Source: Acidobacteriota bacterium (GTDB lineage Bacteria; Acidobacteriota; Terriglobia; Terriglobales; SCQP01). From it: 64,000 bases of DNA. Positions 1,998 through 27,006 of this stretch are shown in pieces (the first letter of the stretch is position 1; every line of letters begins with the position of its first letter). A model generated the notes under the pieces. That model ran no database searches. It was not told the DNA's origin and saw nothing but the letters and a program-made list of their open reading frames with translations. The translations under genes and the position numbers were made by a program. The stretch covers positions 124,001 to 188,000 of the forward strand of contig DAIDIE010000043.1 of NCBI GenBank assembly GCA_027459505.1. Reading direction: 5' to 3'.

Positions 1998-3500
1998 ATG
2001 GCCAGCAGCCGCGAGCAGACTGCGCGCTTCGACAACTACATCAATGGGGAATGGCGGGCGCCCGCCACGGGTGAATACGAGCCCAACCGCAATCCCGCTT
2101 GCGCCAGCGAAATGCTGGGCGTGTTTCCGCGCTCCGGGGCCGAGGACGTGGAGCGCGCGGTCAATGCGGCGCGAGCGGCCTTTCCCGCCTGGAAGGCGAC
2201 CCCCGCGCCACGCCGGGCGGAGATGTTGTTTCGCGCGGGTCAGATCCTGGTGGCGCGCAAGGAACAGTTTGCCCGGGATATGACGCGGGAGATGGGCAAG
2301 GTTCTGCTGGAAGCGCGTGGTGATGTGCAGGAAGCCATCGACATGCTGTTCTTCATGGCTGGTGAGGGAAGGCGCCTGTACGGACAGACCACGCCGTCAG
2401 AGCTGCCCAATAAGATGTGCCTGACCGTGCGCAGCCCTATTGGAGTGGCGGGGCTGATTACCCCGTGGAATTTCCCCATGGCCATTCCGAGCTGGAAGAT
2501 CGTTCCGGCTCTGGTTTGTGGCAATACGGTGGTACTGAAACCGGCCGAAGACACCCCGCACTCGGCGCTGCATCTGGTGCAGGCGCTGACCGATGCAGGG
2601 GTGCCGCCCGGCGTCGTCAACGTGGTGTTCGGCACGGGGGAAAGCTGCGGGGCGGCGCTGGTCGAGCATTCCGCGGTGGGCGTCATTTCGTTCACCGGTT
2701 CCACCGAGGTCGGGCGGCAGGTGAATCAGAAAGCGGCGGCGCAACTGAAGCATTGCAACGTCGAGTTGGGCGGCAAGAACGCCATGATCCTGCTCGACGA
2801 CGCGGCTCTGGACCTGGCGATTGAAGGCTGTTTGTGGGGCGCCTTCGGCACCAGTGGTCAGCGCTGCACCGCCGCCAGCCGGCTGATTGTGCAGAAAGGG
2901 ATTTACCAGAAGTTGCTGGACATGCTGGTGCAGCGGGCCAGCCGGTTAAAGATTGGCGACGGACTGGATCCTTCGGTGCAGATTGGACCGCTGATTAACG
3001 AGGCGCAGTTGCAACGGGTTGCCGGCTATGTGGAGATCGGCAAGCAGGAGGGGGCGCGACTGTGTCTTGGTGGCGAGCGGGTCAACCGCGAAGACACCAG
3101 GGATGGCTTCTTTTTTGCTCCCACTGTGTTTGCCGACGTGGAACCGCGGATGCGGATTGCCCGCGAGGAGATATTCGGCCCCGTGGTCTCGGTTCTCCCC
3201 TGCGATGGGCTGGCGGATGCCATTGCCATGGCCAACGACGTTGACTACGGCCTTTCGGCCTCGATTTATACCCGCAACGTCGATGCCGCGTTCCGCGCCA
3301 TGCGCGACCTGGACGCTGGGATTGTGTATCTCAACGCCCCCACCATCGGCGCCGAGGTGCACCTGCCGTTTGGCGGCGTGAAGGGAACCGGAAATGGACA
3401 CCGGGAGAGCGGCCTGGCGACGCTCGATGTCTACAGCGAGTGGAAAACTCTTTACATCGACTATAGCCATCAGTTGCAGCGGGCGCAGATTGATGTCTGA
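1998..3500 (+). CDS. NAD(P)-dependent aldehyde dehydrogenase
   Basis: A 500-residue soluble ALDH-superfamily enzyme oxidising an aldehyde to a carboxylate with NAD(P). The general-base glutamate is in ELGGKNAMI (about residue 257) and the catalytic cysteine in [10 protein letters not shown] (about 292); the motif [12 protein letters not shown] and the cofactor motif FTGSTEVG are intact, and length is typical. The ATG is preceded by AGGAGG at a good distance. The C-terminal tail resembles the semialdehyde (alpha-ketoglutaric or succinic semialdehyde) branch, so a role in sugar-acid or amino-acid catabolism is possible, but the substrate is inference. It is monocistronic by position, with a CE15 esterase gene 121 bp downstream. 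Confidence 0.93.
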
Positions 3501-3621: not shown

Positions 3622-5022
3622 GTGAACCTGCGCAGATCCCCCAATGTATTCCGTTACCTGGCCTTGTCCGGCGTGCTGGCGTTGAGCCCCACGGTACGTG
3701 GGCAAACGCCGGCACGGACGCACTACCCGCCGGTCGTTCACCTCACCGCCGCGCAGGATCATGCGCGCATGATGCGGCTCCTGGGAATTCAACGGTTACG
3801 CCCGGGCGCCGATCCCAACAACCCAAACTCCCCTAACGCTCCCAACTACGATGAGGCAAAAGCACGCCGCTTCAAGAAGCTGCCTGATCCGCTGGTCATG
3901 GATAACGGGAACCCGGTTCGCACGCACACGCAATGGTGGCTGGAACGGCGGCCGGAGATAGAGCAGGCTTTCACTGAAGACGTCTACGGCCGCATTCCCG
4001 ACGATGTGCCGGCGGTGCACTGGCGGGTGGTGAGCCAGCGCCGGGAAGTGCGCGGCGGGGTTGCGGTGGTGGTGAAGCAACTGCAAGGCCATGTCGACAA
4101 CTCCGCGTATCCGCTGCTCACGGTCAATATCCCGGTGACGCTGGTTATTCCTGCCAACGCCAGCGCGCCGGTGCCGGTCATGATTCATTTCGCCTTCGAT
4201 CCGGTCTTGCTGCAGCGCTTCCTTGCCATGGCGAAAAAACGCGGCTTTAAATTGCCGCCGCCTCCCAAGGGCCCGAGCTGGAAGCAGCAGTTGCTGAACA
4301 GGGGCTGGGGCTACGCCTCGTTGATTCCCACCCGTGTGCAGGATGACAATGGCGCGGGGCTCACCCAGGGCATTATTGGCCTGACGAACCATGGCCAGCC
4401 GCGCCAGCCGGATCAGTGGGGCACGCTACGGGCATGGGCCTGGGCGGCAAGCCGAACCCTCGATTACCTGCAGACCGACAAAGCCGTCAACGCCCATGAG
4501 GTCGGAATTGAAGGTCTGTCGCGCTTTGGAAAAGCGGCGCTGGTGACGGAAGCCTATGACCAGCGCTTCGCCATCGGGCTGATTGGATCATCCGGTAAGG
4601 GCGGCGCGGCCCTCTATCGCCGCAATTTTGGCGAGCGCAACGGTAATCTGGCGGGGACCGGAGAGTATCACTGGATGGCAGGCAACTTCATGAAGTACGT
4701 TGGCCCGCTCACGGCCAACGATTTGCCGGTGGACAGCCATGAGCTAATAGCCATGTGTGCGCCGCGTCCGGTCTTTTTGAGCTCCGGCAAACCCGAAGTG
4801 GAAGGGAAATGGCTGGACATGACGGGAGAGTACGAGGCGGGAGTGGCTGCCGGCGCCGTCTATCGTTTTCTGGGCAAACAGGGCTTGTCGAGTGCTCAGA
4901 TTCCGCCCATCGGGACGGCGCTGCTGCGGGGTGACATCGGCTGGCGGGAACACCACGGCGGGCATACCGATATTCCCAACTGGCCGGCCTTCATTCAATT
5001 CGCCGGAAAGTACTTTAAGTAG
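3622..5022 (+). CDS. CE15-family glucuronoyl esterase-like protein, secreted
   Basis: A 466-residue alpha/beta-hydrolase resembling carbohydrate esterase family 15, which cleaves ester bonds between lignin alcohols and glucuronic acid of xylan. The serine elbow GLSRFGKAAL, the following SSGKGGAALYRRNFGE segment, the LPVDSHELIAMCAPRPV segment and the terminal catalytic histidine in HHGGHTDIPNWPAF match the bacterial branch, where the cysteine of the fungal G-C-S-R motif is replaced. I chose the GTG at 3622: it has GGAG 6 nt upstream and gives a clean signal peptide ending near VRG-Q. An upstream ATG at 3550 would bury that signal. It fits with the GH44 and GH39 genes nearby as a plant cell-wall degrader. 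Confidence 0.88.
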   Translation: MNLRRSPNVFRYLALSGVLALSPTVRGQTPARTHYPPVVHLTAAQDHARMMRLLGIQRLRPGADPNNPNSPNAPNYDEAKARRFKKLPDPLVMDNGNPVRTHTQWWLERRPEIEQAFTEDVYGRIPDDVPAVHWRVVSQRREVRGGVAVVVKQLQGHVDNSAYPLLTVNIPVTLVIPANASAPVPVMIHFAFDPVLLQRFLAMAKKRGFKLPPPPKGPSWKQQLLNRGWGYASLIPTRVQDDNGAGLTQGIIGLTNHGQPRQPDQWGTLRAWAWAASRTLDYLQTDKAVNAHEVGIEGLSRFGKAALVTEAYDQRFAIGLIGSSGKGGAALYRRNFGERNGNLAGTGEYHWMAGNFMKYVGPLTANDLPVDSHELIAMCAPRPVFLSSGKPEVEGKWLDMTGEYEAGVAAGAVYRFLGKQGLSSAQIPPIGTALLRGDIGWREHHGGHTDIPNWPAFIQFAGKYFK

Positions 5023-5056
5023 ATCCGGTCTGGTGGCGCAGCGCGCGCCACCAGCT

Positions 5057-5833
5057 TCACATCCAGCCGCCGTCGATGATGTGTTGCTGATTGCTGATCA
5101 TGGCGCTGTCATCGGACGCCAGAAACAGCACCAACCGCGCGACGTCGGAGGGAAGCAGTTCGCGCTTCAGTGACTGCCGCGTCATGAGCTGCGCGTTGTA
5201 TTCCTCGGTCCGCCAGAGGCGCTTCTGCCGTTCCGTAACCACGGCGCCGGGCAGCACGCAATTGACGCGGATATTGTCCGGCCCCAGCTCATGAGCCAAC
5301 GCGCGTGTCATGGCCACAATAGCCGCCTTCGCCATGTTGTAGAGGAACAGTCTAGGCGATGGTACCAGCCAGGAAATCGAGCTCATGTTGATGATGGAGC
5401 CGCCGCCGGCGCTTTTCATCCCAGGGGCCACCGCCTGCGCGGCAAAAAACTGATGTTTCAGATTGATCGCCATCCGCTCATCCCAGAACTCCGGGGTCAC
5501 TTCGGAGAAATCGTGGCGGTTGTCGCTGGCGGCGTTATTGATGAGAACGCGCACGGACCCTTGCTGCCGCACCAGCTCGATGATGAGCGCACGCAGGCGC
5601 GCGGTATCGGTGACATCGCAGGGCAGAAACACGGGGGCGTGGTCCGCTTGCCTGAGACGCGAGCAAAGCGCCTGGCCTTCCGCTTCGGCAAGATCGCAAA
5701 AAAACACACGCGCGCCCTGCTGCGTGAAGTGCTCAACAAAGGAGGCGCCAATGCCTGTGGCGCCGCCGGTGACGAACACCAGACGGTCGCGCAGGCTGGG
5801 GTAGGTTGCAAACTGGTTGGCAAGCTCGGCCAT
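5057..5833 (-). CDS. Short-chain dehydrogenase/reductase (SDR), classical type
   Basis: A 258-residue NAD(P)-dependent oxidoreductase. The Rossmann glycine motif TGGATGIG, the NNAA motif, the catalytic serine in NMSSISW, the Y-x3-K dyad in LYNMAKAA and the C-terminal glycine pair before WM are all in place. The ATG at 5833 starts 13 bp after the stop of the histidine kinase gene, so the two are probably cotranscribed. A longer open frame starting at 6007 would overlap the kinase gene and adds 58 residues with no SDR similarity, so it was rejected. The substrate is unknown; sugar or 3-oxoacyl dehydrogenases of this fold look alike. Confidence 0.92.
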   Translation of the reverse strand: MAELANQFATYPSLRDRLVFVTGGATGIGASFVEHFTQQGARVFFCDLAEAEGQALCSRLRQADHAPVFLPCDVTDTARLRALIIELVRQQGSVRVLINNAASDNRHDFSEVTPEFWDERMAINLKHQFFAAQAVAPGMKSAGGGSIINMSSISWLVPSPRLFLYNMAKAAIVAMTRALAHELGPDNIRVNCVLPGAVVTERQKRLWRTEEYNAQLMTRQSLKRELLPSDVARLVLFLASDDSAMISNQQHIIDGGWM

Positions 5834-5846
5834 AGAAGCGATTATT

Positions 5847-8441
5847 TCACGCGTGCGCGGAAGCCTGGGGTAAAGCGGCGTCAAGCGGCGCAAGCGGCGG
5901 GGCCGGAATCGCGGAGCGGGGAAGGCGCAGGATAAACGTGCTGCCTTGTCCGGCCTGACTTTCCGCCCAAATCTTCCCATGATGCTGCTCGACAATGGCC
6001 CGCACAATGGTCAAGCCCAAGCCCGATCCGCCCTTGGCTCTGGCATCGCTGGAGTCGACCTGACGGAATCGTTCAAAGATTAACTCCAGCATCTCGGCGG
6101 GAATGCCGCGCCCCTGATCGGCCACACGGAACTCCACCTCGGCGTCCACCACCGCCGCGGAAACGGTAATTGTGCCTCCCGGGGCGGAAAACTTGACGGC
6201 ATTGCTGAGCAGATTGTCCAAAACCTGCAGTAGACGGTCGCGATCCGCCCACAAGCTAAACTCCTCGCACTGCTTGCGCAGCACCAGATGATTACTCATG
6301 GCTAAGGCGGCAATGTTGTCCAGGGCGGATTGGACTACGGCAGCGGCTGAACAGAGCTGCGGAACCATCTGCAGCTTCCCGGAATGCAGCCTGTCCAAAT
6401 CAAGAATATCGTTCACCAGCGAGGCCAGGCGTTCGGAGTTGGTTGACGCCAGGTGGAGCATTCGGCGCTCCTGTTCCGCTTGCCGCGCCAGCTTGCCCGA
6501 AGCCACCAGCCCGAGCGCCGCGCGGATAGCGGCGATAGGGGTTCGTAGTTCATGGCTGACGACAGACATGAATTCCGATTTCATGCGGTCGAGTTCAAAG
6601 CGCTTGCTGACATCACGGAAGCTGAGCAACGCGCCGAGACAGCGGTTGTCGTGGTCGCGGAGCGGGGTGCAGGAATATTCTGCGGCAAAGCGGCTGCCGT
6701 CGCCGCGGCGCAGCAACTCATAGGCAGCCTGCTGAGACGTCTGCGTCAGCAACGTAATCTGCACCGGCCACTGTGCCTCCGCATATGGCTGACCGTTCTG
6801 GTCGAGTGGATCAAAGACCTCGCGAAGCGGGCGCCCGGCGATCTCCCGCGGGGAGCGCGCCAGCAGGCCCGCCGCGGCGGGGTTGGCAAAGCTGACGACT
6901 CCCTGGCGGTCGACGCCGATCAAGCCATCCTCAGCCGAATTCAGGATGAGTTTCTGTTGGTCGCGGAGATCGGAAACGGTGCGTTGGTTCTGCCGTAAAC
7001 GTGACAGGAGTGGGGGCAGCGCCAGGGCCAACAGCGCCAAAAGGGCCCAGAGCATGCTGTAAATAACGCGTCGCCTTTGAAAACTTGCGCTGGGGCGCAA
7101 CACCACCAGATCAGAGGGCGTGCGCATCAGGATGCTCATGGCGTTGATGCCTTTTTCGGCGTGGCGCTGGAACGCGCCGGTGACCGAGATCCGTGCGCCC
7201 TCGTGAACCTGACGCCAATGTCGGGATTGGGAAGAGTCGAGTACGGCGCGAATAACCCTCTTTCCCTGGGCGAGATCGACCCAGGCGCCTTCCCCGGAAG
7301 CACCATGCCCCGCCACCGTGCCGGTCAGGGTGACCAGGCTGGCGTCGTATTGGCGGTCGTTGAGCCGCTTGAGACGCAGCCGCATCGGCGTTGCCGGACG
7401 GCCGGAGCGCGCCGGCCGGATGCGCGCATTGGTCAATGAGACCGCGCTTGGCCCTGGTGAGACGTAACCAATTGCATCAACGAACTGTCCGGGAGCGATC
7501 TTGCTGGAGCTGATGCCGCGCAGGATCAGCCCCGCGGTTTGATCCTCGATGATCACCGTGCCCTTACCGTCTGCAAAGATGACCTCGCCCCGCACGTGCA
7601 CCATATGCTGCAGTGGGCCGGTGAAGTGATATGCCATGAGGCCGGCGATGGCGCTCACCGGCAGACGGAAGGGATGAAGCGCTCCCGTCCGTTCAATGGT
7701 GATCTGCGAGGGAGTTTGAACAAAGAGCTGCGCACCGCGCCATTGCCGCTGCGCTGAGAAGAGCGAGCCGGCCACGCCACGAAGGGTAACCTCCGCGTCG
7801 ACAAGCCGCTTGGCGTCAGCAATCCTCCCCGGAATGCGTACGGGGATGGTGCTTCCTTGATCGACAAGGGTAAGGACGGTCTGCCGCGGCGCCATGTCGA
7901 GCCGGGATTGAAAGTAGTGCGCGTAGGCGCTCGTGGTTTCCACGTTCTGGACAGAGCGAATCACCCCGCGCAAGGCGATGAAATCGGAATCGTAGCTTCC
8001 GTCGCGTAAATCGCCGGGAGTGCGGAAAGGAGCGTGCGGTAGTTGCCGGTGCGCGATCTTGCGAATGCGCAAGCTGATCAGTACTGGTGCAAAATCGCCC
8101 GCGTCGGTAATCCCATCGACTTGGACCACGTCCCCGCAATTCAATCGCAGAAGAGGCCGATAGGGAAGGCGAACATAAATTCCATTCTGACCCTGCTGAA
8201 TGAAGAGCAGGGCGAGGTAGATACCGCGATCCACATAGCTGCGGCGGCTGTAATAGGTGACGACCCCGCGAACGCGAACCAGAATGTGGCGGTCCGCCTG
8301 CTCGCGCGAGAGACGGTGGATCGCGCCGGGCGTCATCCAAACGCCTCGATCCCGCGAAGCACGCGGCGCCGCCACCGCAAACACCTGAAGCAGTAGACAA
8401 ACGCATGCCGCTTGTGCCGCTCGGCCGAGCCGACAGGTCAT
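5847..8441 (-). CDS. Membrane sensor histidine kinase with PAS domain
   Basis: An 864-residue hybrid-free sensor kinase. After an N-terminal signal segment there is a long periplasmic region of repeated beta-rich modules (OB-fold-like by appearance, residues about 40-450), one transmembrane helix near 465, a PAS domain near 500-620 (SAEDGLIGVDRQG), the HisKA phosphoacceptor box SHELRTP near 627, and a HATPase_c domain with N box (NLLSNAVKF, near 745) and G boxes (DQGRGIP, GSGLGLTI near 807). The ATG at 8441 was preferred to one at 8798 because it places the signal segment at the N-terminus. No response regulator is adjacent; the SDR gene follows. The signal sensed is unknown. Confidence 0.92.
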   Translation of the reverse strand: MTCRLGRAAQAACVCLLLQVFAVAAPRASRDRGVWMTPGAIHRLSREQADRHILVRVRGVVTYYSRRSYVDRGIYLALLFIQQGQNGIYVRLPYRPLLRLNCGDVVQVDGITDAGDFAPVLISLRIRKIAHRQLPHAPFRTPGDLRDGSYDSDFIALRGVIRSVQNVETTSAYAHYFQSRLDMAPRQTVLTLVDQGSTIPVRIPGRIADAKRLVDAEVTLRGVAGSLFSAQRQWRGAQLFVQTPSQITIERTGALHPFRLPVSAIAGLMAYHFTGPLQHMVHVRGEVIFADGKGTVIIEDQTAGLILRGISSSKIAPGQFVDAIGYVSPGPSAVSLTNARIRPARSGRPATPMRLRLKRLNDRQYDASLVTLTGTVAGHGASGEGAWVDLAQGKRVIRAVLDSSQSRHWRQVHEGARISVTGAFQRHAEKGINAMSILMRTPSDLVVLRPSASFQRRRVIYSMLWALLALLALALPPLLSRLRQNQRTVSDLRDQQKLILNSAEDGLIGVDRQGVVSFANPAAAGLLARSPREIAGRPLREVFDPLDQNGQPYAEAQWPVQITLLTQTSQQAAYELLRRGDGSRFAAEYSCTPLRDHDNRCLGALLSFRDVSKRFELDRMKSEFMSVVSHELRTPIAAIRAALGLVASGKLARQAEQERRMLHLASTNSERLASLVNDILDLDRLHSGKLQMVPQLCSAAAVVQSALDNIAALAMSNHLVLRKQCEEFSLWADRDRLLQVLDNLLSNAVKFSAPGGTITVSAAVVDAEVEFRVADQGRGIPAEMLELIFERFRQVDSSDARAKGGSGLGLTIVRAIVEQHHGKIWAESQAGQGSTFILRLPRSAIPAPPLAPLDAALPQASAHA

Positions 8442-18858: not shown

Positions 18859-20190
18859 ATGCAAGTGGATCAAGCTTTCCGGACCCGCTGCCGTCTGCCG
18901 ATTGTGCTGGTTCTGCTGATCACCGCCGCGGTAATGGGTGGCGCGGCCCAGTCCTCGCCGGCCGCGGGAAGGCAATTGGATGCGCTGGTTTGGACAAAAT
19001 CATTCCCGGAACTGGTTTCGCGGTATCCACATTTGCGGCCGCAGCTCGGTCCGCTCGAGCAGCCTTACTTCGACGGAATCATCGCTGGGCGTGAAGGGCG
19101 CCTGGAGCAGTCGCGCCGGCATTTGCGGCCCCTTACCGGAAAACTGAGCGCCCATAGGACCGCAACTGCCCTGCGAACGCTGGCCTGCGACGACTTCCTG
19201 CTCTCCCATTACCGTGAAGCCGCCACGGCTTACGCCCTGCTTCTCGATCATTACGCCAGCCATCTTCAAGCAACGGAAAAGCAGGAGCTCAACGACAACC
19301 GCTCGGTTGCGGCTCTGCTTGGAGGTGCCCCGCGGGAGAGCGTCGGCCTCATTCCCAGGGTTAACCTGCCTTTGCGCCGTGATCTTGTCGGCTTACTGGA
19401 TACCCAAGTGGCCGCCGGAAAACAGAAGCGCTGGTTCATCCTCGATACCGGCGCCGGAATGACCACAATTCCGGAATCGACCGCGCGCGCCTTCCATCTA
19501 AAGATGCTGCCAGGCCAGGCTGAAACGCAGGGCATAACCGGCGTCGAGGTCCCTTTACACGTGGCCATTATTCCGCAACTGCGCTTCGGGCGGGTGGTGC
19601 TGCGAAACATTCCAGCCCAGGTGGTTTCGGACGCGTCGCTGACCATACCCGGGAGGTTGCCGCACCAGACCACCTTGCTTGCAGGCATTCTGGGATTTCC
19701 GGAGCTGCGCCTATTGGGTAATCTCCACTTCAACGTTCGCACCAAACAATTGCGCCTTGGGGACCCAGAGCCCGCCGGCCCGCGAATCTCCTTGTACATG
19801 TACGACATGGTCGCGCTGCTGGGTATGAGATATCAGGCGCGGCCAGTGCTGTTCAGCTTGGATACCGGCGCGCAAGCGGGACTGCTCACCGCTCATTTCC
19901 TGCGGCGCTTTCCCGCCATTAAGGACCGGTTGAAGCCCCGGCCCTACATCTTCGCCGGGGCCGGAGGGCAACGGCGCATGACTGCGTATTATGTGCGTGA
20001 CATTCCCATCCAATACGCGGACACCAGCGTCGTGCTGCATGATCTGCCCGTCCTGACGGAAGACATTGGTCTGCAACCGCTGGACGGTGTCGACGGCAAC
20101 ATGGGGCAGGACCTGTTGCGCAAGTTGGGGAATTACAGTATAGATCTGCAGTCCATGGGGCTTGGCGCCGGTATAGCGCATGCCAAATGA
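18859..20190 (+). CDS. Secreted retropepsin-like aspartic protease with two DTG motifs
   Basis: A 443-residue exported protein: a signal peptide (LPIVLVLLITAAVMGGAA), a helical region (about 40-155) and two consecutive retropepsin-like domains. Each half carries an active-site motif: FILDTGAGMTTIP near residue 196 and FSLDTGAQAGLLT near 335. Each also has a downstream hydrophobic-glycine segment (LAGILGFPEL; DGVDGNMGQDLL) as in clan AA peptidases. The first half matches the Asp_protease_2 type. Two lobes in one chain could form an intramolecular dimer, as in pepsin. The substrate is unknown. The gene lies between two glycosidase genes. Confidence 0.82.
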   Translation: MQVDQAFRTRCRLPIVLVLLITAAVMGGAAQSSPAAGRQLDALVWTKSFPELVSRYPHLRPQLGPLEQPYFDGIIAGREGRLEQSRRHLRPLTGKLSAHRTATALRTLACDDFLLSHYREAATAYALLLDHYASHLQATEKQELNDNRSVAALLGGAPRESVGLIPRVNLPLRRDLVGLLDTQVAAGKQKRWFILDTGAGMTTIPESTARAFHLKMLPGQAETQGITGVEVPLHVAIIPQLRFGRVVLRNIPAQVVSDASLTIPGRLPHQTTLLAGILGFPELRLLGNLHFNVRTKQLRLGDPEPAGPRISLYMYDMVALLGMRYQARPVLFSLDTGAQAGLLTAHFLRRFPAIKDRLKPRPYIFAGAGGQRRMTAYYVRDIPIQYADTSVVLHDLPVLTEDIGLQPLDGVDGNMGQDLLRKLGNYSIDLQSMGLGAGIAHAK

Positions 20191-23136: not shown

Positions 23137-24754
23137 ACAGCCGCACTGGAAGGGCGCTGTGAATTGCGGGTACCGACTTCAATTGCTGCAACACCCCGGT
23201 GTCCACCGGACCATCCACCTCCACAATGGCCACGGCCCGCAACGGCTTCTCACCGCGCAGTTGCTCGGCGCTGGCGTCACTCTTTTGTTGCCGCCCTAAC
23301 GCGAAGCTGGCGATATTGATACCGTTCTTGCCGAGCACCGTGCCAATATGGCCGATCACGCCGGGAACGTCGTCATTGCGTAAGACCAGCAGGTGTTCGC
23401 TCAGCGGCGCCTCCAGATCGATGTCGTCCAGGCCCAGCAGGCGCGCCTGACCGTTGAGGACGGCGGCCTGCAGATGCACCTCGCCCTCGTCCCCTTTCAG
23501 CAACACCGACAGCGAGCGCAACTGGTTGCGCGTATTGCGCCAGCTTCCCTCGTGAATGGCCAGTCCGCGCTTTTCCGCCATGGTACGCGCGTTTACCACG
23601 TTGGCCTTTTCCGAAAGGGTGTGATTCAGCAGCCCGGTCAGCACCGAGTTGCGGATGAGCTCCGTGTTCCAGTCCGCCAGGTCGCCGGAATAGCGCAGCG
23701 CCAGTTCGCGAGGCTGTGAACCGCCCAGTTGCGCCAGCAGTGCGCCCAGCTTCTGGCCGAGATCGAGCCAGGGTTGCAGTTCCTTGTACTCTTCATAGCC
23801 AACCGAAGGCACATTCACCGCGTTCTGGATGATGCCGTTAGCCAGGTAGTCCTTGATTTGGCTGGCAATTCGGTGTCCCACCCGTTCCTGCGCCTCATCA
23901 GTGGAACCGGCGATATGCGGGGTGGCAATGAGGTGGGGAGCACTGAGCAATGGAGAGCCGGCAGGCGGCTCCTTTTGAAAGACGTCGAGAGCAGCCCCAC
24001 CCACCTGCCCGCTCTGCAGCGCTTCCAACAGGGCGGTTTGATCGATCAGTTCGCCTCGTGCGCAATTGATGATGCGAATGCCTTTCTTCATCTTCGCGAA
24101 GGCCGCGGCGTTCAACATGTCGCGGGTGTCGGGAGTCAGAGCGACGTGCAGCGTCAGGTAGTCCGATTGCGCATAAAGCTCGTCGAGTGAGACCAGTTTG
24201 GCGCCCGACTCGCGCACCGCCAGTGCAGAGACAAACGGGTCGTAGGCCAGCAAAGCCATTCCAAAGACGGCAGCACGGCGTGCAACCTCCAGGCCGATGC
24301 GCCCCAGACCAAGAATGCCCAGCGTCTTGCCTTGCAACTCGGTTCCTTGCAAGGACTTCTTTTCCCACTGCCCGGCCCGCGTAGTGGTGTCGGCGCGAGG
24401 TATTTCCCGCGCGAGGGCGACCATGAAACCCAGTGTCAGTTCGGCGACGCTGGAGGCGCTGCCGCCCGGAGTGTTCATCACCACCACGCCCTTCCGCGTG
24501 GCCGCTTCCAGATCGACGTTATCCACCCCTATGCCGGCCCGCCCCACCACCTTAAGCTTGGGCGCGGCATCGAGCAGAGTGGAGGTAACTTTCACCGCCG
24601 AGCGTACGATGAGGGCGTCGGCGTCGGCCAGTTCCTTGACCAGACTGCCGTCCTGCACGGAGGCGGGGGTCAGCTTCACCACGCTCCAGCCGGGTTCGTT
24701 TTCCAGTTCCTGGATGCCCTTGGGGGAGATTTTCTCGGGGATGACAATCTTCAT
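23135..24754 (-). CDS. serA: D-3-phosphoglycerate dehydrogenase
   Basis: A 539-residue first enzyme of serine synthesis (3-phosphoglycerate to 3-phosphohydroxypyruvate, NAD). It is the long form: catalytic and Rossmann domains (LGILGLGRIGLEVARR; catalytic Arg in NCARGELID, Glu in DVFQKEP, His in ATPHIAGST), an allosteric substrate-binding-like domain in the middle, and a C-terminal ACT domain (VLRNDDVPGVIGHIGTVLG) for serine feedback. The ATG at 24754 gives the typical MKIVIPEKIS start; the frame upstream to 24865 is not SerA-like. It lies 64 bp after a class V aminotransferase homologue on the same strand, a pair that suggests a serine operon. Confidence 0.96.
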   Translation of the reverse strand: MKIVIPEKISPKGIQELENEPGWSVVKLTPASVQDGSLVKELADADALIVRSAVKVTSTLLDAAPKLKVVGRAGIGVDNVDLEAATRKGVVVMNTPGGSASSVAELTLGFMVALAREIPRADTTTRAGQWEKKSLQGTELQGKTLGILGLGRIGLEVARRAAVFGMALLAYDPFVSALAVRESGAKLVSLDELYAQSDYLTLHVALTPDTRDMLNAAAFAKMKKGIRIINCARGELIDQTALLEALQSGQVGGAALDVFQKEPPAGSPLLSAPHLIATPHIAGSTDEAQERVGHRIASQIKDYLANGIIQNAVNVPSVGYEEYKELQPWLDLGQKLGALLAQLGGSQPRELALRYSGDLADWNTELIRNSVLTGLLNHTLSEKANVVNARTMAEKRGLAIHEGSWRNTRNQLRSLSVLLKGDEGEVHLQAAVLNGQARLLGLDDIDLEAPLSEHLLVLRNDDVPGVIGHIGTVLGKNGINIASFALGRQQKSDASAEQLRGEKPLRAVAIVEVDGPVDTGVLQQLKSVPAIHSALPVRL

Positions 24755-24818
24755 GCTGTGTCCTCGTTTAGCGCCCGGTGCGGGGCGGAATGGCGGATGG
24801 CGCGCAGCCATCGCCGGT

Positions 24819-25766
24819 TCATGGTTGCGAGTCACGCCGTGGCCGCGGCACGGCGGCTTCGGCACAACTCGATGCGAATTCCGATGGTTTCTTTTCCAGG
24901 GGCGCGGGCCGCAGTCCTAATTGCACCGCTAGCTGGCCGAGCGCTGGCGCGTCGTTGCCGCCACGAGTGGCGAGAGCGCCCTCTTGCAGGAGCGTTTTCA
25001 GTGATGCCCCAAGCCCCCCAACCAGGTGAGCGGAGAGAGGCCAGCGCGTCTCGCCTTGCCCCTGCCGTTCTCCTTCCCCGCGCAAGTCGAGCAGAAAGCG
25101 AGGTCGGCTGCCGGCCCGAATCCAATTCCAGGCACGGCCGCTGATCGCCAGCCAACTGAGCCCTTCGGGGCCAAGCAGCGCAGGACTCCCCACCGCCAGA
25201 ACGTCAATGCCCCAGGACTCGAAGTTGATACCGTCGAGCGCGGCCGTCAGCGTGGCGTCAACCACCAGCAGAATGTCGTTGCCGGCCTGGCGGACTGCGT
25301 GCGCAATCCCTTCCATGTCGTGACGGACCCGGCTGGAGCTTTCAGTGGAGGCAAGAAACACGGCGCGATGCCCGGTCGCCAGCTGATTGCTGAGCCGGCC
25401 GTGCAGATCTTCCCGGGTAAAACGTTCGCCCTCGGGTCGCTGCATCAGATCCACCGTGCAGTTATAGGCGGAGGCGATCTCACGCCAGCGCTCGCCCCCG
25501 CTGCCCGCCGACAGCACCAGGACACGGTCGCCGGGCTCGGTGCAGTTCACAACTGCCGCTTCCAGCGCTCCAATCGCAGGGCAGGGAAGCAGCACGCCCG
25601 TCGTCTGCAGGCCAAAAAACTGCTGCAACAATGCCAGCGTCTCTTGCACCAATGCGCCATCGGCGGGGAGGTTGGAAACGGCTGCGGGGCGCGAGTGGGC
25701 TGCCCCCGCGCGCGTCAACGAGGGTGCGGCGTGCTGGAACGGATCAATTGGCGCCTGCTCGTCCAT
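24819..25766 (-). CDS. Class V aminotransferase homologue lacking the PLP lysine (probable pseudoenzyme)
   Basis: A 315-residue homologue of the serine-glyoxylate/alanine-glyoxylate aminotransferase group. Several family landmarks are clear: LPCPAIGALEAAV, GDRVLVLSAGSGGERW, and the cofactor aspartate in VVDATLTAALDGINFESWGIDV. Where functional members read G-S-Q-K, this protein reads VGSPALLGPEGLSW, so the Schiff-base lysine is missing and the loop is one residue shorter. The protein is also shorter than the usual 360-390 residues and ends in a low-complexity tail. The frame is intact, and AGGGA precedes the ATG at 25766. In related genomes such a gene next to serA would supply phosphoserine aminotransferase activity; here that role is doubtful. 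Confidence 0.8.
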   Translation of the reverse strand: MDEQAPIDPFQHAAPSLTRAGAAHSRPAAVSNLPADGALVQETLALLQQFFGLQTTGVLLPCPAIGALEAAVVNCTEPGDRVLVLSAGSGGERWREIASAYNCTVDLMQRPEGERFTREDLHGRLSNQLATGHRAVFLASTESSSRVRHDMEGIAHAVRQAGNDILLVVDATLTAALDGINFESWGIDVLAVGSPALLGPEGLSWLAISGRAWNWIRAGSRPRFLLDLRGEGERQGQGETRWPLSAHLVGGLGASLKTLLQEGALATRGGNDAPALGQLAVQLGLRPAPLEKKPSEFASSCAEAAVPRPRRDSQP

Positions 25767-25963
25767 TCGGTATCCCTGAGCGGCATTCCTGCATCCCGGG
25801 AAATATTCAGAATAACAGCTCCGGGCGCGGCCTTCCCCGGAGAGTTGCTGTGAAAAGAAGCCAACCAGCACGGCGTGCCTGGTGTTGCGCCGCCGTCACT
25901 TTGCCGGCGCACATGAGCAGGCACAACAGTGGCGGGTGCAAATGAAAAAGTGCTTGCGCGCAA

Positions 25964-26125
25964 GCGGCACGGCCGCTTTTATTCCACCCGCTTCGGTGTC
26001 CGGCCGAAGCTCGCTAATAGTGGCCGCGCTTTACTAGTCGCCAGCGGTGCGGGACCTAGTAGGCAACCCCGCACTTCGGCCTGCGATTTCGAACTCGAAA
26101 ACAGTTCGACTCGGCCCTGGCTCGT
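25964..26125 (+). repeat. 162-bp structured interspersed repeat, copy 1
   Basis: Copy 1 of a repeat found three times in the window at exactly 162 bp. It differs from copy 2 at 3 positions. It starts with a 5-bp hairpin (GCGGC-ACG-GCCGC) followed by TTTTATT. It then has a 7-bp hairpin GCTTCGG/CCGAAGC, a 7-bp hairpin GTGCGGG/CCCGCAC and a 7-bp hairpin TCGAACT/AGTTCGA. It lies in the gap upstream of the gamma-carbonic anhydrase gene. Confidence 0.95.
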
Positions 26126-26311
26126 CAGGACCGCTTTTGACGCGTGCCATTCCAAAGGAGCGAGCCACCGAGTCCTCCCTGCGGGAGGAGATCGCAGGTG
26201 GAGGGCCGCGAAATTCCGAAGGGCGGCTCCCTCGCGGGGGAGAGGAGCCTGGCATCGGCGGCTTCACGTTCTCACTGGAGAACGTGCCAACGACCCAACG
26301 GAAAGCAATGC

Positions 26312-26337
26312 CAGCGGGCGGCTCAGGAGACGAGGCC
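26312..26337 (+). repeat. Short 26-bp repeat, copy 1
   Basis: Matches 56492-56517 at 25 of 26 positions; the core is GGCTCAGGAGACGAGGCC. Flanking sequence is only weakly similar. Both copies are intergenic. Confidence 0.6.
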
Positions 26338-26493
26338 GTGCCTCGCTGCCGCAATCCGGGAAAGCACTCGTGCTACCCTTAAAGATTCAGGTGAGCGAAG
26401 GCAAAGCCGTGTCGCGCCCCGCTGGAAACGCCACTTTTGCTACTGGCGCAAAGGCATTGGCGGCGCTTCGCAGATGCCCCCAAAGGATCGGTC

Positions 26494-27006
26494 GTGGTCA
26501 AGAGTTTTCTCGGTCATCATCCCAAAATTGCCGCCTCGGCCTATATCGAAGAGAGTGCGCAGATTATCGGTGACGTGGTCATTGGCGAGGAGTCCAGCGT
26601 CTGGTTCAACGCGGTGGTCCGTGGCGATGTGCACTCCATTCGCATTGGGCGGCAAAGTAACATTCAGGACTGTTCTGTGCTGCACGGCTACAAAGACACC
26701 TGGCCGGTCACGGTTGGTGATCGTGTGAGTGTGGCGCATTCGGTCACGCTGCATGGTTGCACGGTCGAGGATGACTGCCTCATCGGCATGGGCGCGGTCC
26801 TGCTTAACGGCGTCACCGTTGGCAAAGGTTCCATCGTGGGAGCCGGCGCCGTGGTTCCCGAGGGAATGCGCATTCCTCCCGGCAGCCTGGTGCTTGGTTT
26901 GCCCGCGCGAGTAAAGCGCCCGGTTACGGAAAAGGAAACTGCCATGATCGCGCGCCACGCCTCCAATTACCTGCTCTACAAGAAGCAGTACCAGGAGATG
27001 CGCTGA
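26494..27006 (+). CDS. Gamma-class carbonic anhydrase family protein
   Basis: A 170-residue left-handed beta-helix protein of the YrdA/PaaY/gamma-CA group. Hexapeptide repeats run through the chain (IIGDVV, VGDRVS, IGMGAV, VGAGAV). The zinc histidines are in VAHSVTLHGC and probably VLHGY. The C-terminal helix (ARHASNYLLYKKQYQ) is typical. Members may hydrate CO2 or be non-catalytic, so activity is not certain. I chose the GTG at 26494, with AAAGGA 6-7 nt before it; an ATG-like start at 26437 would add 19 residues outside the fold. Confidence 0.9.
   Translation: MVKSFLGHHPKIAASAYIEESAQIIGDVVIGEESSVWFNAVVRGDVHSIRIGRQSNIQDCSVLHGYKDTWPVTVGDRVSVAHSVTLHGCTVEDDCLIGMGAVLLNGVTVGKGSIVGAGAVVPEGMRIPPGSLVLGLPARVKRPVTEKETAMIARHASNYLLYKKQYQEMR

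Follow-up and report, generated by a model that had tools for sequence, protein, structure and literature searches.

The gene beside serA in the window, the whole 64,000-nt stretch of DNA that was analysed, is the remnant of a class V aminotransferase that has lost its active-site lysine. It is likely to be the displaced native phosphoserine aminotransferase (PSAT) gene of this lineage, whose step was taken over by SerC and which is now in advanced decay. Decay is the simplest account of this relic, given its many losses, the intact serA-linked orthologues in related genomes and a canonical SerC elsewhere in the host genome.

The relic gene and its product

The relic is a class V aminotransferase by descent, its PF00266 profile score exceeding the gathering cut-off (Table 1), and the serA beside it is ordinary. 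As the sequence-only reading had stated, the gene has no internal stop or frameshift and is followed by a ribosome-binding site for serA; its frame has an ATG start and 315 codons, and the site, GAGGA, lies about 7 nt 5' of the serA ATG. Its indels relative to the orthologues are in frame. Among the marks of a pseudogene, stop codons and frameshifts are thus absent from the frame; truncation and relaxed constraint relative to the orthologues are present, both ends being gone. A tblastn search of positions 24500-26600 with eight orthologues returned one in-frame match and no frameshifted remnants of the ends, all matches in other frames having E > 0.1, so that a single sequencing frameshift cannot explain the missing ends. 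Neither an Rfam match nor a promoter-like site was found around the gene.

Table 1. Coordinates of the relic, its landmarks, serA and a second lysine-less gene (window positions unless a locus is named)
Feature	Position	Strand	Basis
Relic / pseudoenzyme of serA-adjacent class V aminotransferase, 315 aa	24819..25766	-	PF00266 38.6 bits, cut-off 21.5
Codons G193-S194-P195-A196, replacing G-S-Q-K-A of intact orthologues	25179..25190	-	alignment, sequence
Codon of retained cofactor aspartate D170	25257..25259	-	alignment mapping
64-nt relic-serA gap with serA ribosome-binding site	24755..24818	-	sequence
serA, phosphoglycerate dehydrogenase, 539 aa	23135..24754	-	TIGR01327 568.7 bits, cut-off 454
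Full-length orthologue without lysine	L278 (G692:C1:2030200-2035500), 2015-3202	+	sequence

Alignment with 21 intact orthologues agreed with the earlier description of a G-S-Q-K site changed to G-S-P-A with a one-residue deletion: the residue at Gln is missing and Pro occupies the Lys column, leaving the relic without the Schiff-base lysine of an active enzyme. Its only lysines are residues 257, 292 and 293. A shifted lysine rescuing the site was considered and rejected, since with no lysine before residue 257 none can fill it. In orthologue numbering the losses comprise Lys191, Gln190, Gly63 of the phosphate loop, Phe89 (which we take, from human AGT, to stack on the cofactor ring) and Thr239. 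The N-terminal PGPT motif is missing, and the C-terminal domain with R-x-A-H-L/I-G is absent, R335 (presumably the binder of the substrate carboxylate, as in human AGT) and H338 of the orthologues having no counterpart. The C-terminal part is indeed shortened, as had been claimed, the relic measuring 315 aa versus 391-423 aa for the aligned intact orthologues. Of 97 invariant residues overall, 39 are kept and 17 fall in columns that the relic lacks altogether, among them the entire C-terminal stretch; within the core, 32 of 57 invariant residues survive. The cofactor aspartate (D170; Asp165 in orthologue numbering) is retained, as first read, and so are Ser139, Glu137 and GERW of the orthologues. 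The further claim that the fold landmarks are intact stands for the central large-domain core, but not for the N-terminal PGPT motif and the cofactor loop, which are lost. An AlphaFold model (32-row alignment) has a mean pLDDT of 68.6, with a confident core that includes blocks above 90 in residues 71-120, and gives no confident structure for residues 1-34 and 266-315. Having lost the lysine, Gln, aromatic residue, phosphate loop, N-terminal motif and C-terminal domain, the relic protein should be unable to transaminate.

Intact orthologues and linkage to serA

Counting the host, 37 of 41 genomes contain a match to the relic protein. Same-family orthologues are present in 10 of 13 relatives, are about 390-400 aa long, keep the lysine and stand directly upstream of serA in all ten cases; by a strict count serA is directly downstream in nine, and in G013, the remaining one, the two genes abut or overlap. 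In the sister family, serA is directly downstream, within the 1.5-kb flank, in 30 of 46. The lysine is present in all 56 orthologues of the two families, so its loss is not shared with close relatives, a point on which the sequence-only reading had asked for a comparison. The 41 genomes compared include no other member of the relic's genus, a search of a wider collection of genome contigs revealed no close relative of the relic, and one class V aminotransferase of its type is left in the host genome.

Over the whole alignment the relic is 32-36% identical to the family orthologues, which average 70% among themselves. The host serA is 63-74% identical to its family orthologues, and the acceleration is therefore specific to the relic gene. 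Two intact members compared with the NCBIfam models matched BhcA best, at 253-259 bits, far below the cut-off of 650. From its genomic context, the intact aminotransferase is probably the order's own PSAT, co-encoded with serA.

A canonical SerC in the host genome

The suggestion that another gene must serve as PSAT is strongly supported, the search for a second serC-like gene having recovered a canonical SerC (TIGR01364, type 1) at G000:C42:43957-45027, on another contig than the relic. It scores 461.7 bits (cut-off 443.6) and has the site A-G-L-Q-K. Among the 41 genomes, the host alone carries a canonical SerC above the cut-off. The relic itself is not matched by the TIGR01364 or TIGR01365 models at E up to 1. 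Contamination by the SerC contig was considered and rejected: the ctaB next to serC is most similar to those of the host's family, all 7 of which rank above the 12 remaining genomes, and the contig has a tetranucleotide distance (0.106) in keeping with that of window pieces.

In a 77-row tree the host SerC groups, with support, with the SerC proteins of families f90 and f92 of the same class. This clade is sister to sequences from Gammaproteobacteria and Myxococcota, and the SerC of families f91, f4 and f99 lies far from it. Its patchy spread among related orders argues for horizontal transfer, by which the host lineage would have gained its SerC. In Acidobacteria bacterium YP4.bin42 (L145), a canonical serC (3848-5080) lies directly upstream of serA (5238-6824). 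This serC occupies the slot used elsewhere by the class V aminotransferase and belongs to the clade of the host SerC.

Distribution of the aminotransferase and SerC across the class

Canonical SerC (E up to 1e-30) occurs in 77 of 399 genomes of the class, and a strong aminotransferase match (E up to 1e-60) in 249. None of the 77 SerC genomes has a strong match, versus 249 of the 322 without SerC, at a limit of 1e-60 that was chosen after the scores were known and at which the groups touch (weakest strong match 1.3e-60, G522; strongest weak match 1.8e-58, G468). The Fisher probability of 1.7e-40 for this exclusion ignores kinship and, the genomes being related, overstates it. Families f90, f91 and f92 each contain both states, pointing to repeated switches. 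Weak aminotransferase matches in SerC genomes were examined as further relics and rejected: the 29 inspected, which come from 19 of 22 SerC genomes that were searched a second time, are all paralogues that retain the lysine and have no flanking serA.

A second type of SerC (type 2, TIGR01365) was found in 27 of the 399 genomes, four of which also have a strong aminotransferase match and none of which has type 1; for G575, G638, G663 and G708, the status of having no aminotransferase match derives from their absence among the matches listed. This survey covered the class sample, and G006, G007, G009, G010, G011 and G013 lie outside it. Two genomes without the aminotransferase, G003 of the same family and G018 of the sister family, carry SerC type 2 above the cut-off, and G008 has a near-identical open frame, a candidate SerC type 2. 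All four sister-family genomes without an aminotransferase match carry SerC type 2. The 73% complete genome G012 has neither an aminotransferase nor a SerC type 1 match. At the thresholds used, 50 of the 399 class genomes have no SerC of either type and no strong aminotransferase match.

A second lysine loss and probable stages of decay

The lysine is kept in 81 of 82 further loci, from genomes among the matches listed. The exception, G692, is a SerC type 2 genome whose full-length frame reads G-G-S-E-N-A in place of G-G-S-Q-K-A (K191N) and is also altered at Phe89; this loss is independent of the relic's. The four genomes that combine SerC type 2 with a strong aminotransferase match are G577, G692, G372 and G750. 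Of these, G577 keeps the lysine despite its SerC type 2; G692 and G577 both read TSGPT, all others of that alignment reading TPGPT. Counting 139 genes including the relic, the lysine is missing from two of three where a SerC is known versus 0 of 136 elsewhere (Fisher about 3e-4), a count in which strong matches are over-represented, G372 and G750 are excluded and six of the 136 genes come from genomes outside the SerC type 2 search. G372 and G750 hold the two weakest of 106 sister-family aminotransferase matches (chance 0.001). The omega on the G692 branch is 0.087 versus 0.051, a borderline difference (2dlnL 3.7). This decay series in genomes with a second PSAT fits a displaced enzyme that is losing its function.

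Selection on the relic

With time calibrated on serA, the relic branch has an omega of 0.22 (0.11-0.46 for doubled or halved time) versus 0.047, and the fit rejects an omega of 1 for the branch as a whole. The value of 0.22 is rough, since synonymous sites are saturated in the codon model without calibration and the time bound was reached on two branches of the serA fit. If the excess divergence were purely a final neutral phase, that phase would amount to about 1.1 substitutions per codon. Simulated neutral drift of this kind, indels not counted, left the frame free of stops in 0.6-0.7% of runs at a GC of 0.62 and in 3.2-3.7% at 0.74. An open frame is thus somewhat unlikely under long neutral drift, and either the neutral phase was short or some residual role or serA polarity keeps the frame open. 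Codon-position GC was dropped as a sign of constraint, GC2 lying at the top of the range of intact orthologues; the GC3 shift of the relic is compatible with either reading.

Proposed displacement and its alternatives

In the proposed course of events, PSAT activity in the order would be supplied by a class V aminotransferase of AGAT type whose gene immediately precedes serA, and the host lineage would have gained a canonical SerC horizontally. Because the transferred SerC would have taken over the PSAT step, the old enzyme would have become dispensable. The Schiff-base lysine, Gln, ring-stacking aromatic residue and phosphate loop would then have eroded, with loss of the N-terminal motif and the whole C-terminal domain following in our reconstruction of the order of events. 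The frame may be open by chance; alternatively, the relic and serA probably share an operon with the relic first, so a nonsense mutation in the relic could have a polar effect on serA, and this may keep the frame open. Three observations count against displacement and decay: the 315-codon frame is still open after large divergence with an omega of 1 rejected, SerC type 2 coexists with a strong aminotransferase match in four genomes, of which G577 keeps its lysine, and the 50 genomes above have none of the three candidate PSATs. The rejection of omega 1 would also be explained by an early functional phase of the branch.

Those same features of frame and omega, the latter well below 1, are what a maintained pseudoenzyme, the idea raised in the sequence-only reading, would predict, that is, a protein that keeps the large-domain fold for a non-catalytic role such as binding SerA or a serine-pathway intermediate and so tuning flux. 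The retained core residues, the confidently predicted core and the preserved serA linkage agree with such a protein. We nevertheless regard it as unlikely: omega averages in the time before displacement, both termini lack a confident prediction, and relatives that switched to another PSAT are commonly without any trace of the gene. Moreover, the one other lysine loss seen belongs to a genome that has a further PSAT, suggesting that constraint was released. The more specific proposal that the lysine-less protein was selected as a non-catalytic subunit or sensor, a native PSAT turned SerA regulator after the SerC takeover, is rather improbable; nothing found demands it, and it is the boldest reading left standing. 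It is doubtful, to a greater degree, that the intact enzyme is some other AGAT-like enzyme, for example an aspartate- or serine-glyoxylate aminotransferase that is dispensable here and linked to SerC only indirectly. BhcA as best match and the genomes with no PSAT candidate would favour that assignment, but the linkage to serA, and a distribution strongly complementary to those of two SerC types, speak against it. An assembly or sequencing artefact in this metagenome-assembled genome, a 45-contig assembly, is very improbable, since the losses are spread along the whole gene and both ends, the frames of the relic and serA are intact, and the host has the SerC that displacement predicts.

Relation to known systems

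The relic belongs to the same family as the AGAT-type class V aminotransferases (PF00266), which include the Thermus thermophilus 'aspartate aminotransferase subgroup IV' (PDB 1iug) and BhcA (NF045640). The entry 1iug is its top match both by sequence and by Foldseek on the predicted core fold. Unlike these enzymes, the relic has neither the lysine, Gln, phosphate loop and N-terminal PGPT motif nor the C-terminal domain, and it scores far below every equivalog cut-off listed. SerC (TIGR01364, serC_1) and serC_2 (TIGR01365) belong to another branch of the class V aminotransferases. Across the class they take the place of the intact orthologues, and they likely catalyse the same reaction. A partial-length match to the class V aminotransferase family and fold was also seen in PDB 9os7, a chain of Mycoplasma penetrans methionyl-tRNA synthetase.

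As in non-orthologous gene displacement followed by gene loss, a transferred isofunctional gene would here have replaced the native one. In contrast to the typical case, the displaced gene survives here as an open frame next to serA, and relatives show stages of decay. Methanococci have class V phosphoserine-forming aminotransferases, an AGAT-like enzyme being proposed for the PSAT step; in this proposed role they resemble the intact orthologues, a likeness of described function rather than of compared sequence. A literature search, judged by its listings, yielded no account of this aminotransferase in Acidobacteriota or of its displacement by SerC. We predict that an AGAT-like aminotransferase passing no equivalog model tested is the PSAT of most genomes of the class, as judged by the share with a strong match, and this assignment would fill a pathway gap overlooked by annotation with SerC models. 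The progression from intact through lysine-less and truncated to absent would form a natural series of enzyme decay after replacement, in which dead enzymes kept as regulators can be tested against those merely slow to vanish. If the lysine-less protein were kept by selection, the full-length K191N copy of G692 would be a younger example.

Elsewhere in the window, on the forward strand at 18859-20190, an open reading frame of 443 aa contains two D-T-G-A motifs (LDTGAGMTT and LDTGAQAGL) and presumably resembles a tandem retropepsin-like aspartyl protease.
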